DNA of 44,205 nucleotides, taken from positions 1-44,205 of the forward strand of contig CAMCKZ010000017.1 in assembly GCA_945875545.1 (NCBI GenBank), in the 5' to 3' direction. Numbering within the stretch: position 1 is the first letter of the stretch; each line of letters starts with the position of its first letter. The position numbers and the translations under genes were made by a program. The notes beneath the pieces are model-generated. The model was given only the letters and a program-made list of their open reading frames with translations. It was not told the origin of the DNA and searched no databases. The stretch is from Polyangium aurulentum (GTDB lineage: Bacteria > Myxococcota_A > Polyangia > Polyangiales > Polyangiaceae). Shown here piece after piece: positions 1,269-8,545 of this stretch.

Positions 1269-2423
1269 GTGATCATTTGCCCGAGCTGCGGCACAGAAAA
1301 CCAGGAGCATTTCCGGTTCTGCCAAGGATGCGGTCTGGATATTTCGAACGCTCCACGCGGGCGCGTCAACGCGGCGGCGGTGCCGTTGAAGACGGAGACC
1401 ACCGTCGAAGCCCAGGTCGAAACTCCTGCCGCGGAGGCTCCCAGCGAGGCACCTCCCGAGGCCTTGCACACCCCGCCCGCGCCCATGGTCGTCGCTCGCC
1501 CGGCGCACGTTGAGCCCGCCGCCTCCTCGCATGTGTGCGCGGTTTGCAGCTACGAGAACACCACTGGAAATGTCTTTTGCGGGGGCTGCGGCACGCGAAT
1601 GCCTCCCCCCGTGGCCGCTGCACCTGCCGCACCTGCCGCGCCCGACGCGGCTCTCGCGCCCACCGCGGTGCCTGCTTTTGCGCACGCCCCGAGCCTCGCG
1701 CCGGTGGCTTCTGCCGCCGATTTTGTCCACGACCGAGCCCTCGATCGCACCTCGCTCGGGGGAATTTCGCCCCTCGCCGCGCCGGCGAAATCCGTGCGAT
1801 TCTCCCTCACGCTGCTTCGCGTCGATGGCACCGACGCCGGGGTTTTTTCCTCCACGGAGAGCGTCGTCACCGTCGGGCGCCAAACCGGCGGCGTCTTCTC
1901 CAGCGACGCAACGTTGTCTCCGCTGCATGCCAAATTTGACTACCGCGGCGGGGGGCTATTTGTCACCGATTGCGCGTCTCTGAACGGCGTCTATCGGCGG
2001 CTCGTTCGCAACGTTCCGGCGCTCTTGGAGCACCTTGAGGGCTTCCGGATTGGCCAAGAAATTCTCCGCTACGAAGTCGTGCGCGACGGCGACGTCGGCA
2101 ACGAAGTGCGTACCCTCGGGTCTCCTCGCCACGGGGTGGCTGCGCGAATTGTGAGCATTGTAGGCCGCGGCGACTACGGAAACGCATTTTCGATCCCACC
2201 GACGGGCCTGCTTTTTGGCCGCGAGCGAGGGCACGTATTGTTTCCGGAAGACGGTTACGTTTCCGGGCTCCACTGCCGGATTCACCACGAGGGAATGAGT
2301 GCATTCCTCACGGACTTGGGCTCGTCCAACGGCACGTACATACGCCTTCGCGCCGAGACCGAGGTCGGGGCCGGCGACGTGCTCCTCATGGGGCAGCAAC
2401 TATTCCGCGTAGGCCTCGCATGA
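1269..2423 (+). CDS. Double zinc-ribbon, double FHA-domain protein
   Basis: The protein has 384 residues from a GTG at 1269. I prefer this start to the in-frame ATG at 1209 because a GAGGAG site lies just before it and the first zinc ribbon begins at once. Order: zinc ribbon 1 (Cys4, Cys7, Cys18, Cys21), an Ala/Pro linker, zinc ribbon 2 (about residues 90-107, CAVC and CGGC), another linker, a degenerate FHA domain (about 176-275, with VGRQ and SLNG) and a canonical FHA domain (about 285-384, with FGRE, SGLHC and SSNGTY). FHA domains bind phosphothreonine peptides, so it probably takes part in Ser/Thr-kinase signalling, a style common in Myxococcota. No kinase is nearby. Its stop overlaps the Nudix gene (ATGA), implying co-translation. 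Confidence 0.9.
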   Translation: MIICPSCGTENQEHFRFCQGCGLDISNAPRGRVNAAAVPLKTETTVEAQVETPAAEAPSEAPPEALHTPPAPMVVARPAHVEPAASSHVCAVCSYENTTGNVFCGGCGTRMPPPVAAAPAAPAAPDAALAPTAVPAFAHAPSLAPVASAADFVHDRALDRTSLGGISPLAAPAKSVRFSLTLLRVDGTDAGVFSSTESVVTVGRQTGGVFSSDATLSPLHAKFDYRGGGLFVTDCASLNGVYRRLVRNVPALLEHLEGFRIGQEILRYEVVRDGDVGNEVRTLGSPRHGVAARIVSIVGRGDYGNAFSIPPTGLLFGRERGHVLFPEDGYVSGLHCRIHHEGMSAFLTDLGSSNGTYIRLRAETEVGAGDVLLMGQQLFRVGLA

Positions 2424-2869
2424 TCCGGAGCGACGACGCGGGCCGGCCACTTGTGCGCGTGGTCGCCGCGATGGTCGAACGCGATGGTCGCTATTTGCTC
2501 ACGCAGCGACGAAGTACGGCCGTTCTCCCGCTTTTGTGGGAATTTCCAGGGGGAAAAGTCGAGCGCGGCGAGACAGACGCCGATGCCCTGCGGCGCGAAG
2601 TGCGCCATCGTTTGACCATCGAGCTGACGGTCGGCGCGATGGTTTCGTCGGTACGCCACGCCTACGAGTTCTACGACCTGGAGCTGCACCTCTACGAGTG
2701 TTGGCTTGAGGCGGACACCATCTTGGTGCCCCACACGGTGAACGCGCTCGCGTGGGCACGCAGCGGCGAGTTCGACCAATACGCTTTCACGCCCGCCGAC
2801 GAGCGGTCGATGGCGTTGCTGCTCGGCCTCGTCGAAGAGCGAGCCTCAAAGCCTCGCGTCGCCAGGTAG
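2420..2869 (+). CDS. Nudix-fold protein with a degenerate Nudix box
   Basis: The 149-residue protein has a MutT/Nudix fold: VVAAMVERDGRYLLTQR leads into WEFPGGKVERGET. The Nudix box should read GX5EX7REUXEEXGU. Here residues 59-67 are REVRHRLTI, so the paired metal-binding glutamates are replaced by His63 and Arg64 and the glycine by Thr66. The rest, including GGK..GE and Arg59-Glu60, is intact. Family knowledge predicts weak or no pyrophosphohydrolase activity; a nucleotide-binding or regulatory role is possible but inferred. It overlaps the FHA gene by 4 bp (ATGA) and is the last gene of that pair. Confidence 0.85.
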   Translation: MIRSDDAGRPLVRVVAAMVERDGRYLLTQRRSTAVLPLLWEFPGGKVERGETDADALRREVRHRLTIELTVGAMVSSVRHAYEFYDLELHLYECWLEADTILVPHTVNALAWARSGEFDQYAFTPADERSMALLLGLVEERASKPRVAR

Positions 2870-3139: not shown

Positions 3140-4240
3140 CTAGTTCGGCGAACCCTTGACGCGCTTGATCATGGCCCACTCTTGCTCGTAGGCCGCGTGG
3201 TTTGTGCGAACGACGTCGAGATTTTGAAGGTTCGTGGCGTTCTCTTCGAGGCGCGCAAGTTCCTCCATTTGTTGAGAAATATCGCCGAGACCGTCGCATA
3301 GCGACGACAAGATCGTCTCGTCCACCTCTGTGCGCGCCTTACCCGCGAAATGTTTTGCGTATTCCGCAAACAGTTGGTTGGCGGCTTCGCCGAGCGCTCC
3401 CATAATGTCGCCGAGGGGGGTTGTCTTTCGCAGTTCGCGAATGGCCACGAGCTCCACGTCGTAGGCCTTGCGACGCTCTTCGACGACCTCGATGTTCTTC
3501 GCGTGCCAGTCGACGAAAAAACCTTGGGCGCTGATGTGGCGCATTTTTCGCTCGATGGAATCGAGGTTAGCGACGACGCGCGCGAGCAGCGCTGGCCGCC
3601 GCGATGCGCGCGACTTGTTGGCGAACTGTTCGGTGTAGACAGCGAACTGGCCATTCGCGAGACCACTGAGGCGACCGGCCTGCTGCTCGAGGGTTCCGCC
3701 GGATTGCGCCTTCTCAACTTCGCCGCGCTCCGCGGAGTACATATTGAGATTTTGCCGCACGACCTCGAGGTCTTTGTCGAAGACGGGATCGCGTTCGCGC
3801 TTACGAATGACGAGCATTTTGCTCTCGATGCTCTCGAGGTCGGTGACCATTTCTGCGAGAAAAGAGAGATCGCGCGTGTCGCGCCCGAGGTTCGCGAAGT
3901 GCCGCGAATAGCGCGCAAAAACGAAGTTTGCTTTCGCCGCGAGGATGCCAAAAGCCTCTTGCGCCGGACTCGCCAAACGCGCGCGCTGCACCTGCGTCAC
4001 TTCTTCAGAAAACATCTTTCGCATGGCCTCCGCGGACGCGCGGCCCTCGGCAAGATCGCGACCGCGTGCCACGGCAGGAATCTGATCGACGCGCGCGATG
4101 ATGTCGTCGACGCGGCGGACCATTTGTTCGAGGGCGGCGAGGTCGCGCGTGGGGCGAGGCTGCCCGGCGAAGTCGCGCTCGTAGGTGGCGTCGAGGTCTG
4201 CGAGTTCCGATTGAATGCGTTCAAGAAACGGGGTGGCCAT
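3140..4240 (-). CDS. Unrecognised all-helical protein with four ~91-residue repeats
   Basis: The 366-residue protein has no recognised family, signal peptide or membrane segment. It contains four copies of a Y-x3-F-A-x3-R signature: YERDFAGQPR (20-29), YSRHFANLGR (111-120), YTEQFANKSR (202-211) and YAKHFAGKAR (294-303). Spacing is 91, 91 and 92 residues. Each is followed by a leucine-rich segment with a Leu-x2-Ile/Val-x3-Met pattern and ends with a conserved VVR/VVE-like helix. The composition (Glu, Arg, Lys, Ala, Leu) predicts helical bundles of spectrin-repeat type. The start ATG lies 6 bp from a perfect 12-bp palindrome (4247-4258). A structural or scaffolding role is only a guess. Confidence 0.75.
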   Translation of the reverse strand: MATPFLERIQSELADLDATYERDFAGQPRPTRDLAALEQMVRRVDDIIARVDQIPAVARGRDLAEGRASAEAMRKMFSEEVTQVQRARLASPAQEAFGILAAKANFVFARYSRHFANLGRDTRDLSFLAEMVTDLESIESKMLVIRKRERDPVFDKDLEVVRQNLNMYSAERGEVEKAQSGGTLEQQAGRLSGLANGQFAVYTEQFANKSRASRRPALLARVVANLDSIERKMRHISAQGFFVDWHAKNIEVVEERRKAYDVELVAIRELRKTTPLGDIMGALGEAANQLFAEYAKHFAGKARTEVDETILSSLCDGLGDISQQMEELARLEENATNLQNLDVVRTNHAAYEQEWAMIKRVKGSPN

Positions 4241-4246
4241 GCGCCA

Positions 4247-4258
4247 TGCGCTAGCGCA
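4247..4258. repeat. 12-bp perfect palindrome at the 5' end of the four-repeat gene
   Basis: TGCGCTAGCGCA sits 7-18 bases upstream of the minus-strand start codon. Its inner ten bases recur at 19525-19534, in the leader upstream of rimP. It could be an operator or a hairpin over the ribosome binding region, but a chance match is not excluded. Confidence 0.3.
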
Positions 4259-4349
4259 GTTTTTCGCATCGGGAACCCCCCTTGGAATTCTCTACGCGCG
4301 CCGCAGGTTCGAGTTCTCCGCGCGGCACGCTGTCTCGCCCCCGCGCCCC

Positions 4350-6443
4350 CTAACGTTCAGCAAAAATGCGCGTTTGCCGCGGTGGAATGAGGGCCTGCGT
4401 GCCGAGGTGCGAGGTGCCCTCCACGAGCTCTTGGAGGGGCGTTGCCGGTAGTCCCGTGACGGTTGCGGCCGCATCCCCGCGGTTGATGGCCACGTAGACC
4501 CCATCTCCCGTGGTGCTGACCCGGTAAAGCCAGGTGTCGTTCGCGACGGCCACGGTCTGCCGCGTGCCGCGTCTCAACGCCGGATGCGCGCCGCGAATTG
4601 CGAAGAGTTTCGCTACGCGATCCCGCAGCCACGTTTGATTCGCGCTCAAACCCGACCACGGCATGAACCGCCGATTGTCCGGGTCACCAGCGCCCGCCAA
4701 TCCGACTTCGTCGCCGTAGTAAACGAGGGGCGCGCCCTTGGTGGTGGCGAGAAGCGCGAACCCATTGGCGACGCGCTCGTAGGCCTCGCGTTCGGCGGGC
4801 CCGGGCATGGGCGGCGACTGCCAAGCGCGGTCTTTTCCGTCGGCCGATTGGTTGTCTCCCCAAGGGCGCGTGTTCGCCGCGAGGTGAATAATGCGGGGCA
4901 AATCGTGGTTGCCGATGAACGTGCTCATGATCGCCTGAGGCCCGTAAAAACCCTCGTTTCCATCAAGAAAAGCCGCCATGTCCGCGAGGCGCATCGTGCG
5001 CATGATGAGGCCCTCGACCACGTGCCGACGGCCGGGAAAATCGAACTGGCCATCGAGCTTGGTGGCCGGGTCCACGTAGGCGCGAAGGGCATCGCGGCTC
5101 CCAAAATCGTAAGTCTCGCCGACCATGTAAAAGCGCTGCCGCGGAGTTTGGAGTGGAACGACCTCGGCCTGAATGCGCGCGCGCAGCTCCGTCAACCAAC
5201 TCGGATCCACGTGCTTGATGGCGTCGAGACGGAAGCCATCGATGCCCACTTGCTTCGCCCATTCGATGGCGTTCGTGACGCTGTACGCGCGCGCGGATCC
5301 ATTCGTGAAATTCCAGTGCGGCAGGTAGTCGGTGAACCAGCAGCGCTCGCGATCGGGCATGGAATCCCACGAGCACCCTTGGCCGCAAATGCAATTCCCG
5401 CCGCGCCCATTGCTATTGGGCCAGAACCAGTCCGCATGCTGCGCGAAGATGCCCGACGACACGTGGGCGTGCACCATCGCGTAGTCGAAGAGAACCTTGA
5501 GCCCCTTGGCATGCGCCTTCGTGACGACGGCCTTCAATTCGTCGAGGGTGCCGAAACAGTTTTCGTGCTGCAACGATGCCGGATTGCTGTTGTCTAGTTT
5601 TGGCCAATACCCGTGATATCCAGAGTAATACTTATCGTCGCCGCCCACTCCCCGGCCACGCTCCGCCGTGTTGTCGAGAGGCACGGTTAGCCAGAGCGTG
5701 TTGACGCCTAAACCATTGAAATAATTAGCATCAATCTTCTGCGCGATGCCCGCCCAATCGCCGCCTTGGTAGGCCGCGATGGGGGCCGACACCCCGCTGA
5801 CCGCGCAGTTGTTGGCCGCATTGCCGTCCAAAAAACGATCGACGAAGGCGAAATAGATGACCGCGTCGCGCCAGTCAAAAACCCCCGCGGGTGGCGGGGC
5901 CGGCTCGTTGCACGTGAAGGTCGTGCAGGTCGTGGGCGCGAGAACATTGTTCACGTTGCCCGACGCATCGGTCTGCGTCGGCTTCGATGCGTCGACGCGC
6001 CACTCGGTGCCGTTGATGACAAACTTCATGAGCGAAGGTCGCCCGTAAGGCACCGTGATCGTCGCGGCCCATTCGTCCGAGGCCGCACCCGTGGACCGGC
6101 GCATCGCCACCCCCTGCTGCCACGTGGCCTCGCCCCCAAAGTCGCCCCGCACTTCAACCGACGTCTCACCGCTGTATGCATACGTCACATCCGCAGCACA
6201 TCCTTTGTAATCGTCTGGGCACACGGGAACCGGAGAGCCTGCATCCACCGCTGGAATGGGGTCGGGCCCGGACGTCGAACCGGAGCCGTAGGACCCGCCG
6301 CTGCCCCCATAGCCCGGGTCGAACGTCGGTGGATCCGGGGGACGGCTGTCGTCCCGATGGCGAAGTGCAGCGTCTCCGCAGGCCGCCAAAATCGCGAACA
6401 GCGGAAGAAAAACCAGAGGAAAAAACGTCACTTGTCGAGGCAT
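4350..6443 (-). CDS. GH13 alpha-amylase-family lipoprotein
   Basis: The 697-residue protein begins with a signal peptide and lipobox (FAILAAC, Cys22), so it is probably anchored to the envelope. A Gly/Ser/Pro linker follows, then an immunoglobulin-like carbohydrate-binding segment (about 75-175) and a GH13 barrel. Conserved regions: I (D320-x4-H325), II (GFRLDAIKH, nucleophile Asp407), III (GETYDFG, acid/base Glu443), IV (GNHD, Asp514). All catalytic residues are present, so it should hydrolyse alpha-1,4-glucans; exact substrate unknown. A four-Cys insert (351, 353, 357, 368) lies between regions I and II and is shared with the upstream paralogue. Its ATG lies 16 bp inside the end of that paralogue, so the two are one operon. 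Confidence 0.92.
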   Translation of the reverse strand: MPRQVTFFPLVFLPLFAILAACGDAALRHRDDSRPPDPPTFDPGYGGSGGSYGSGSTSGPDPIPAVDAGSPVPVCPDDYKGCAADVTYAYSGETSVEVRGDFGGEATWQQGVAMRRSTGAASDEWAATITVPYGRPSLMKFVINGTEWRVDASKPTQTDASGNVNNVLAPTTCTTFTCNEPAPPPAGVFDWRDAVIYFAFVDRFLDGNAANNCAVSGVSAPIAAYQGGDWAGIAQKIDANYFNGLGVNTLWLTVPLDNTAERGRGVGGDDKYYSGYHGYWPKLDNSNPASLQHENCFGTLDELKAVVTKAHAKGLKVLFDYAMVHAHVSSGIFAQHADWFWPNSNGRGGNCICGQGCSWDSMPDRERCWFTDYLPHWNFTNGSARAYSVTNAIEWAKQVGIDGFRLDAIKHVDPSWLTELRARIQAEVVPLQTPRQRFYMVGETYDFGSRDALRAYVDPATKLDGQFDFPGRRHVVEGLIMRTMRLADMAAFLDGNEGFYGPQAIMSTFIGNHDLPRIIHLAANTRPWGDNQSADGKDRAWQSPPMPGPAEREAYERVANGFALLATTKGAPLVYYGDEVGLAGAGDPDNRRFMPWSGLSANQTWLRDRVAKLFAIRGAHPALRRGTRQTVAVANDTWLYRVSTTGDGVYVAINRGDAAATVTGLPATPLQELVEGTSHLGTQALIPPRQTRIFAER

Positions 6444-8545
6444 GGGGAATCCGATGGAAGCCAGATTTCGAAGGTTCTGACGGCGCCCTTTGGGATTGTC
6501 AACTCATCTCTGAGTGACGTTATGCCGCCTTGGAAAAAGCCGCGTGAAGCCCGGTTGTATGGAGCAGCCATAGTTAGACGAATATCGCTCGTGGGTGCCC
6601 TGGCCAAGACGGCGAGAGCGAAATCTTCGCCGACGCGGCGACCGAGAACCAAGGCCTCGCTCGTGGCGTGGAGCACGTCAAAAGAACCCCGACGAAGCGG
6701 CGCGCTGCATCGACGCAGCTGCCCCAGTTGCTGAAGATGACGCTCCAACAAAGTGGCCTCGACGGGCAATGAGTCGCGGGCCGGAAGGGGCCTTCGCGTC
6801 ACCGGATCGCCGGTGCCCGGAAGACCCAGTTCGTCGCCCTGGTACAAAAATGGAAACCCCGGAAGGGTGTAGAGTGCAGTGAACCCGAGGCGAAGCTTCG
6901 CCCAGGTCGCCGGGTCGGTGGAAAAGTCTTCCGTCACGAAGCGCCCGGCGGAACTCCCAGACGCCACAGAGGCGCTCCGGGCTACGTCGTGGTTGCCCAG
7001 AAACGTGGCCATTACTGCCCCTGAGGAGCCCCAAGAAGCCTCTCCGCGGGCGACGGCCTCGGTCACCCACGACAGGGGCGCAGACTCGCTTAGAAACGCC
7101 CCGCGGAGGGCCCAAAAAAGAGGGAAGTGAAACGTGCTCGAAAGACCAAACGGGCCAAGATGATAGCGAAGCGCGTCGTAGGCATCGGGGCCCGTGAAGA
7201 TTTCGCCGAGGGCCAAGAGGTCGGGGCTTCCCGCCGCCGAGGTGTCGCGCAGGCGCTGGATGATGGCGCGGGTTGCGCCGCGTGGCATCATCGGCACCGC
7301 ATCGATGCGCACGCCGTCGAAGGAAAAACGCTCAAGCCAACGCGCGGTCGCGGCGGTCATCGCCTCGGCGGCGTCGTGGTTGTCCCAGTTCACGTCGGGC
7401 AAATACGGGGCGAACCAGCAGCGTTCCTGCGCCGTGTCCCACGGGCAGCGCGCGTCTCCGCAGGTGCAGCTTCCCGGCGTGCCGTTGAACCAACCGTCGC
7501 CGGCGTGGGCCCTCCAAAACGGATGCTCGTCGTGCACATGGTTCGGCACCACGTCGAGGATGACGCGAATCCCGCGGCGGTGCGCCTCGGAAAGCTGCTC
7601 GCGCAGGTTGTCGTCGGTGCCAAGGCTCTCGTCGATGGCGTCGGCGGAAGCGGCCCAATACCCGTGGTAGCCCGTCCCCTCGGCGCCCTCTCCGATGTCA
7701 AAAGAGGAACGTGTATTCTGCACAATGGGCATCAGCCACAGCGTGTTGACCCCGAGGGCCTCAAACGTACCGCGCCGCAGTTCCGCGACCACGCCGGAGA
7801 GCCGTCCGCCGGCGCGCGCCGCGAGGGATGCGGGCATGGCAAGGGCCGCCCCACCTTCGCCGCGAAAGCGATCGGGCAAAATTTGATAGCCCACGCGATC
7901 GCTGTCGGTGAGGCCGTCGGTCCATACAAATGATCGCCGGTCGACGCGCCGGCCCAGGGCATCGGTGGCCTCCACGCGGAACGCGAACCTCTTCGCGGAA
8001 GGCTCGGCGAGGGTCACCGCGAACTCCCCCTGAACCCCATGGGGCACTGGGATTTCGCTGACGTTTCCCGTTTCCTCGTCGCGAAGCGCAAGCCTCGTAA
8101 ACGGGGTTCCGTCGGACGATGGCGACAAGACCGCCGTGAAGCGAAGCGCCGAGGCCTCGATGCGCACCTCGGCGATCGCCAGTTGCGGAAGCGTGCAGTC
8201 TGCAACATCGCGCCGGCTCACGGGCCTTCCTTCGAAGGTCTCCTCGAGGGGTGCCGTGAGGTCTCGAACCCACACGCCATCGCGAATGAACGCGTAGCGA
8301 ACCGGGCCCGCGCCGAGTTTGCGCTCGCCCATGAACCAGCCGTCCGAGCGCGCCTCAAGGCTCACGCCGGGGCGCGCGAAACCGTTCCACGAGCCCACCA
8401 ACTCCACGCGACTTTGAGGGCCTGGGGGACGAATCCAAAACCGCTCGATACACGCCGAATCGACAGCCGCGACAGGCGTGCAACCACTTGAAACTATTGC
8501 GAAAAAAAGAACATGGTGACGCAGCATGTTCCGGGGCCCACTCAC
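6428..8545 (-). CDS. Second GH13 alpha-amylase-family lipoprotein
   Basis: The 705-residue paralogue of the downstream amylase also starts with a lipoprotein signal (IVSSGC, Cys22). The start is either GTG at 8545, overlapping the stop of the previous gene (GTGA), or ATG at 8527; both leave the lipobox intact. A CBM48-like N-terminal segment (VELVGSWNGF, about 47-56) precedes the barrel. Catalytic motifs: DVVPNH (331-336), GVRIDAV (Asp415), GEIF (Glu448), GNHD (Asp520). The four-Cys insert is again present (360, 362, 367, 376). Divergence between the two copies suggests different glucan or oligosaccharide preferences. Three copies of the dispersed palindrome lie inside this gene. Confidence 0.92.
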   Translation of the reverse strand: MSGPRNMLRHHVLFFAIVSSGCTPVAAVDSACIERFWIRPPGPQSRVELVGSWNGFARPGVSLEARSDGWFMGERKLGAGPVRYAFIRDGVWVRDLTAPLEETFEGRPVSRRDVADCTLPQLAIAEVRIEASALRFTAVLSPSSDGTPFTRLALRDEETGNVSEIPVPHGVQGEFAVTLAEPSAKRFAFRVEATDALGRRVDRRSFVWTDGLTDSDRVGYQILPDRFRGEGGAALAMPASLAARAGGRLSGVVAELRRGTFEALGVNTLWLMPIVQNTRSSFDIGEGAEGTGYHGYWAASADAIDESLGTDDNLREQLSEAHRRGIRVILDVVPNHVHDEHPFWRAHAGDGWFNGTPGSCTCGDARCPWDTAQERCWFAPYLPDVNWDNHDAAEAMTAATARWLERFSFDGVRIDAVPMMPRGATRAIIQRLRDTSAAGSPDLLALGEIFTGPDAYDALRYHLGPFGLSSTFHFPLFWALRGAFLSESAPLSWVTEAVARGEASWGSSGAVMATFLGNHDVARSASVASGSSAGRFVTEDFSTDPATWAKLRLGFTALYTLPGFPFLYQGDELGLPGTGDPVTRRPLPARDSLPVEATLLERHLQQLGQLRRCSAPLRRGSFDVLHATSEALVLGRRVGEDFALAVLARAPTSDIRLTMAAPYNRASRGFFQGGITSLRDELTIPKGAVRTFEIWLPSDSPCLDK
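6869..6879. repeat. Dispersed palindrome copy 1: TGTA-GAG-TGCA
   Basis: In the 705-residue amylase (minus strand), encoding TALYT with ACT GCA CTC TAC. Confidence 0.8.
7712..7722. repeat. Dispersed palindrome copy 2: TGTA-TTC-TGCA
   Basis: Same amylase gene, encoding VQNT with GTG CAG AAT ACA. Confidence 0.8.
8194..8204. repeat. Dispersed palindrome copy 3: TGCA-GTC-TGCA
   Basis: Same amylase gene, encoding VADCT with GTT GCA GAC TGC ACG. Confidence 0.8.

Follow-up and report, generated by a model that had tools for sequence, protein, structure and literature searches.

The gene at 3140-4240 on the minus strand of the window (the whole 44,205-nucleotide stretch of Polyangium aurulentum DNA that we analysed) encodes P0001, a protein of 366 amino acids counted from the ATG (coding positions 3143-4240, plus the stop) that is made of four similar repeats. 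The four-repeat family to which it belongs is conserved, undescribed and of an ordinary fold class. We believe, with a probability of roughly 0.55, that P0001 is a soluble scaffold or adaptor of the cytoplasm, stand-alone and without enzymatic activity, built from four three-helix bundles in a folded-back arrangement. A scaffold is the simplest reading of a protein that lacks export and membrane signals, matches no enzyme family, has a near-fixed number of modules and conserved residues that look structural, and for which no common partner gene was found. The rigid four-module unit would offer binding surfaces to one partner or several.

The four-repeat gene is conserved and under selection

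The four-repeat open reading frame is a real gene under purifying selection. Near-full-length homologues of P0001 were 36-71% identical to it, those of two sister genomes being 70-71% identical over residues 1-364, and dN/dS was about 0.19 in all three within-genus comparisons. We rejected the antisense open reading frame at 3350-4390 as a gene on the basis of this dN/dS and because homologues matched the minus-strand protein instead. In all three members of the genus the antisense frame was nearly open, with 1, 1 and 0 stops over the length of the gene, and its openness therefore does not decide between the strands.

The gene is widespread among relatives of the window's genome. At the level of the order, 53 of 183 genomes had a match to P0001 (E ≤ 1e-5). 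A profile of 31 sequences matched 120 of the 377 genomes sampled from the phylum, presumably Myxococcota (E ≤ 1e-3), a few of them only partially, and gave no match in the other 257, many of which are incomplete. P0001 was single-copy in its own genome, and the one named record among the homologue loci was the uncultured delta proteobacterium MAG Kiruna3_bin-1548. The plasmids, phages and viral contigs that we searched contained no relative of the protein. We expect neither a signal peptide nor a membrane helix, the best 19-residue Kyte-Doolittle mean being 0.89 (at residue 127); GRAVY was -0.44 and the pI 5.8.

P0001 contains four copies of one repeat

The repetition in P0001 is regular and far beyond what shuffled sequences contained. 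An earlier note on this DNA had placed the motif Y-x3-F-A-x3-R at residues 20, 111, 202 and 294 with near-constant spacing. We found the motif at exactly these positions, with spacings of 91, 91 and 92 residues. Translating the window in all six frames (88,406 residues) gave six copies, four of them inside P0001, and among 20,000 shuffles of P0001, 76 had one copy and none had two. The four-fold repetition itself, also claimed in that note, was upheld by self-similarity and by profile comparison. Ungapped self-similarity peaked at offsets 91, 183 and 274 (0.258, 0.240 and 0.326), all three values lying above the maximum over 500 shuffles (0.031), and pairwise hhalign between the family profiles of the four repeats gave probabilities of 99.2-99.7%.

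We counted repeats across genomes with a single-repeat profile (100 sequences), scoring up to 22 candidates per genome. The profile matched 91 of 235 genomes; 75 of these had exactly four matches, 2 had three and 14 had more than four. In the search with the 31-sequence profile, 13 of the 14 had at least one further homologue, and the remaining one (G337) was represented by two partial pieces. In most rows, repeat 1 of other species was nearer to repeat 1 of the window protein than the window protein's own repeats 2-4 were, as expected of an old duplication. The four modules were probably generated by duplication before the sampled lineages diverged. The clean internal four-fold repeat and near-fixed copy number make the protein an easy target for structure work.

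All four repeats are encoded on the minus strand; the helices given here are those predicted by AlphaFold2. Repeat 1 (residues 1-91; 3968-4240) has helices at residues 4-24, 34-52 and 61-89 and is marked by Y20, R29, R32 and E80. Repeat 2 (residues 92-182; 3695-3967) has helices at 92-115, 125-148 and 152-180, with Y111, R120, R123, D124 and E171. Helices of repeat 3 (residues 183-274; 3419-3694) are at 184-205, 216-238 and 244-273, and its marked residues are N196, Y202, R211, R214, R215, N249 and E263. The last repeat (residues 275-366; 3143-3418) has helices at 276-298, 308-331 and 335-362, with N288, Y294, R303, N337, N340 and E354.

An arginine and a glutamate are kept in nearly every repeat. 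Conservation was measured on 200 profile-matched open reading frames, reduced to 195 rows with fewer than 60 gaps and then to 145 non-redundant homologues by dropping sequences more than 97% identical; loci L074-L077, which are divergent or split, are not in alignment A1. The loop Arg (R29, R120, R211 and R303) was kept at 99, 100, 97 and 95%, and the paired helix C Glu (E80, E171, E263 and E354) at 97, 100, 99 and 95%. This Glu sits about 51 residues after the Arg, and the signature is larger than previously described. The signature Tyr was kept at 97, 96, 86 and 90% in repeats 1-4, and the Gly after F-A at 94, 94, 79 and 85%; the window protein has Asn at the latter position in repeats 2 and 3. 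A second Arg (R32, R123 and R214) was kept at 97, 99 and 97%, and its equivalent in repeat 4, which is Val in the window protein, at just 60%.

Loss of the Arg and loss of the Glu tended to coincide. Both residues were present in 563 of 580 repeats, exactly one was lost in 9, and both were lost in 8, compared with about 0.3 joint losses expected if the two were independent. Of the 8 joint losses, three fall in the related paralogues L212-L214 and a further two in a single divergent protein, L208. Because of this clustering, the joint losses, which are few events, may partly reflect decay of whole repeats and not mutual dependence of the residues. In one family (f26), second and more divergent homologues (L209 and L211-L214) lack one or both residues of the pair in repeats 1, 3 or 4, and these proteins are a natural test of its role.

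Each repeat is predicted to be a three-helix bundle

AlphaFold2 predicted 12 helices in P0001, three per repeat, in keeping with the long helices that had been noticed earlier. The full-length model (31 sequences) had a pLDDT of 89.7 and a pTM of 0.72, and a model of repeats 2-3 (99 sequences: the window protein and 98 of 119 selected homologues) had a pLDDT of 96.7 and a pTM of 0.86. Covariation pooled over the 145 homologues was consistent with this fold: of the 30 strongest inter-helix couplings, 28 agreed with an up-down-up bundle, compared to 42% of all such pairs, with register constants chosen after the coupling list had been viewed. Pair 29-80 was the top coupling by pooled DCA and pairs 20-29, 20-80, 24-80 and 24-84 were high, a signal that can arise in part from mixing different repeats; within-repeat MI retained pair 29-80, at 3.9 standard deviations. 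Each repeat is predicted to have its A-B loop close to the lower part of helix C.

Couplings between different repeats were rejected as evidence. DCA pairs such as 22-39 can be created by pooling different repeats. Packing of repeat 2 against repeat 4, as might be read from couplings such as 103-322, was rejected since the residue classes track the clades (30 and 25 changes when counted separately, 47 jointly).

The conserved residues probably hold the bundle together. E80 is on a conserved stripe of helix C (77-80-84-87), and for this reason we read the Arg, Glu and Tyr as a structural staple, the Arg-Glu pair probably facing the core; this orientation comes from the stripe rather than from model coordinates. 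The Arg of the A-B loop would reach the Glu of helix C, and these two and the Tyr of helix A would form a polar staple closing one end of each bundle. G26 would cap helix A and T31 would cap helix B.

Four ligand sites could explain the near-total conservation of the Arg, Glu and Tyr equally well. By analogy with 14-3-3 proteins, which hold phosphate via Arg and Tyr, the four Y/R/R/E clusters would be equivalent sites, binding a repeated ligand that is anionic or phosphorylated. We consider this unlikely, although it is the alternative that fares best. The first Arg reaches 95-100% and the second, in the first three repeats, 97-99%, in a family whose overall identity to the window protein is about 40%, and the last repeat retains its Arg and Glu even though no repeat follows it. 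However, the second Arg is poorly kept in that same repeat, and with Arg and Glu lost together in 8 of the 17 repeats that have lost either, and with E80 on the core-side stripe, a structural pair is simpler. 14-3-3 chains were among the structure matches (Z of 8.1-8.5), but these matches cover 74-75 residues in one comparison and 74-140 in another, the longer ones at 8-15 Å, and lie amid many unrelated helical proteins.

The bundles are probably not joined as in spectrin

Single modules of P0001 resemble spectrin repeats. Over 86-90 residues they aligned at 2.6-3.0 Å to spectrin repeats of plectin and of Entamoeba, and like the spectrin family they are predicted to be antiparallel three-helix bundles, with 91-92 residues being somewhat under the approximately 100-120 of spectrin. 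The linkage appears to differ. In spectrin, helix C runs on into the next helix A, whereas the predicted models here break at every junction: the full model at 90-91, 181-183 and 274-275, with 2-3 residues between helix C and the next helix A, and the two-repeat model at its one junction. Gly or Pro was preferred at the first two junctions (a G91 equivalent in 74%, P92 in 71% and G182 in 62%) and not at the third. Tandem spectrin pairs (2odu, 6xf1, 1s35 and 5j1g) superimposed on the two-repeat model with an rmsd of 18.9-25.8 Å over 167-172 residues. P0001 also differs from spectrin in that its repeats are strongly similar in sequence to one another and share a near-invariant R/E/Y motif, and in a family copy number nearly fixed at four. 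The Pfam spectrin profile did not match P0001 at E up to 1, and ANC1_spectrin matched 4 of the 31 homologues (E ≤ 0.1, best 2.2e-6) but none of 100 single repeats (E ≤ 0.01).

Based on the junction breaks and the misfit of tandem spectrin pairs in these models, a spectrin-type rod is unlikely. Of the "rod or bundle" suggested in the earlier note, the bundle has therefore held up, as three helices up-down-up per repeat, and the rod has not. The repeats are probably packed in a bent or compact arrangement, as judged from these comparisons rather than from model coordinates. By folding back at each helix break, successive bundles would form a four-module unit that is compact or curved. Single modules like those of spectrin with a different linkage would test how bacteria build multi-bundle scaffolds.

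Comparison with known structures gave only general likenesses. At an E cut-off of 0.001, Foldseek matched the full model to nothing in the PDB or among viral structures, and the two-repeat model to nothing in the PDB. The top structural Z values, 11.8 and 11.4, were inside the range that the tool gives unrelated helical models. Designed helical-repeat and toroid proteins (6e9z, 6xr1 and 6xr2) were among the better local matches, 6xr1 aligning 167 residues of the model range 91-362 at 4.3 Å; these are artificial designs that share only a common arrangement, with Z within the range for unrelated helical repeats.

Sequence searches assign P0001 to no named family

P0001 had no match above cut-off in Pfam, NCBIfam, PHROGs or PADLOC, in line with the earlier statement that no family could be recognised; a well-conserved family is thus nameless in all four libraries searched. 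Literature searches listed no paper on it. With E up to 1, Pfam returned only KxDL, Wbp11 and ABA_WDS for P0001, all below cut-off. Among the best 25 of 43 families matched by the 31 homologues (E ≤ 0.1), the commonest were DUF2408 in 10 of 31 (best 4.5e-5), Dad4 in 8 of 31 (best 1.2e-4) and the ANC1_spectrin already mentioned, and no NCBIfam family was matched by more than 3 of the 31 (best 2.2e-4). Pfam matches to single repeats were sparse, with Dad4 in 3 of 100, Rop in 2 and six other families in 1 each (E ≤ 0.01), and DUF2408 in none at the same threshold. In our judgement, the scattered Pfam and NCBIfam matches are chance likeness between helical sequences.

Among PDB sequence profiles, the full-length profile matched 3kdw at E 0.0015. 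With the single-repeat profile, the designed circular repeat protein 7rdr reached E 6.7e-9 and sc-apCC-4 reached E 1.4e-5. We discounted the latter two because no single stretch of either passes by itself, the best being 34 and 25 residues, respectively, of one helix.

One divergent homologue, P0002 (G111, L074 8235-10202), has an extra C-terminal region of about 290 residues that is Cys-rich at its end. This region had no match in Pfam (E ≤ 1e-3), PHROGs or PADLOC (E ≤ 0.1). P0002 is possibly the four-repeat module fused to a further domain.

Neighbouring genes differ between families

We found no gene partner conserved across the four-repeat family in 71 anchored loci and 64 scanned close same-strand neighbours; the gene calls in these neighbourhoods came from a simple script rather than from annotation. 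Neighbours differed between families. Pfam matches among the 64 were to DUF2334 (7), aminotransferase (3), alpha-amylase (3) and peptidase M23 (3), with 2 each for the remaining families among the best 25 of 53. The scan left out 3 of 67 neighbours: a gene of the amylase cluster in L054 and one short open reading frame each of L068 and L074. Inspection by eye of the paralogue neighbourhoods (L207-L214; L213 had no called gene) turned up no lead.

In four genomes of two genera in one family (G061, G062, G063 and G065), ftsZ is followed by a PP2C gene and then the four-repeat gene on the same strand. ftsA was in view in three of the four, in three longer loci from two genera, where ftsA, ftsZ, PP2C and the four-repeat gene form a row on one strand (L066 5525-10679, L067 8989-14105 and L083 9948-15019; also L052/L091). 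The names ftsA, ftsZ and PP2C come from reading the sequences, and PP2C also from the Pfam tally. A PP2C gene directly after ftsZ is noteworthy by itself.

This gene order raises the question of whether P0001 is a cell-division regulator like EzrA, that is, a helical-repeat scaffold for FtsZ or FtsA. We regard this as a weak lead and quite improbable. EzrA carries an N-terminal membrane anchor, which is absent from P0001 (maximum 19-residue hydropathy 0.89). Only 3 of the 71 anchored loci had ftsZ near the four-repeat gene (in G061 the view was limited to a short flank), and the 257 phylum genomes that gave no match, many of them incomplete, also speak against a division role. The EzrA Pfam profile was not among the matches to P0001 at E up to 1. 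EzrA was not among the structure matches listed for the full and two-repeat models, which excludes nothing. Both are bacterial proteins of serial three-helix repeats: EzrA is reported to consist of five triple-helical repeats of about 100 residues, to be semicircular and to bind FtsZ (PMC4243239). The same paper describes a C-terminal four-helix bundle, in contrast to the four repeats and nothing else of P0001, and EzrA repeats without meaningful sequence homology to each other, unlike those of P0001 (PMC4243239). Based on these differences and those from spectrin, P0001 is filed under neither EzrA nor spectrin.

A bolder reading is more improbable still. In 2014, the authors of the EzrA structure stated that, to their knowledge, no other bacterial protein consisted of serial spectrin-like repeats (PMC4243239). 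P0001 might be a second, independently evolved bacterial scaffold of serial three-helix repeats, a closed four-module unit and not a rod, whose four identical Arg/Glu/Tyr clusters would be equivalent docking sites, organising the division ring or another cytoskeletal polymer in the window's phylum.

The least probable alternative, a glycogen- or starch-use accessory working with neighbouring alpha-amylase-domain proteins, draws on an amylase-domain gene (4350-6443, minus strand) that ends 110 bases upstream of the four-repeat gene on the same strand, is adjacent in both sister genomes and is adjacent in one locus of another family (L071), but the order is reversed in L071, the domain is in only 3 of the 64 scanned neighbours (a fourth, in L054, clusters with them and lies outside the scan), and these proteins begin like lipoproteins as read by eye, whereas P0001 has no export signal. 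The scaffold or adaptor reading remains the one that we prefer.

Several other features of these neighbourhoods were observed. Two adjacent alpha-amylase-domain genes, overlapping at 6428-6443, occupy 4350-8545 (minus strand) of the window just upstream of the four-repeat gene, and both products have lipoprotein-like N-termini and weak matches to glycogen-binding domains. Downstream, a NUDIX hydrolase gene (2420-2869, plus strand) is convergent with the four-repeat gene and is the same neighbour in the two sister loci. Positions 1209-2423 encode a protein with two zinc-ribbon and two FHA stretches, which suggests a phospho-reader. Glutaredoxin and BolA genes are often paired, and in two genomes (L056 6427-8722 and L063 7460-10156) a glutaredoxin-type and a BolA-type gene are split by the four-repeat gene, which lies between them.
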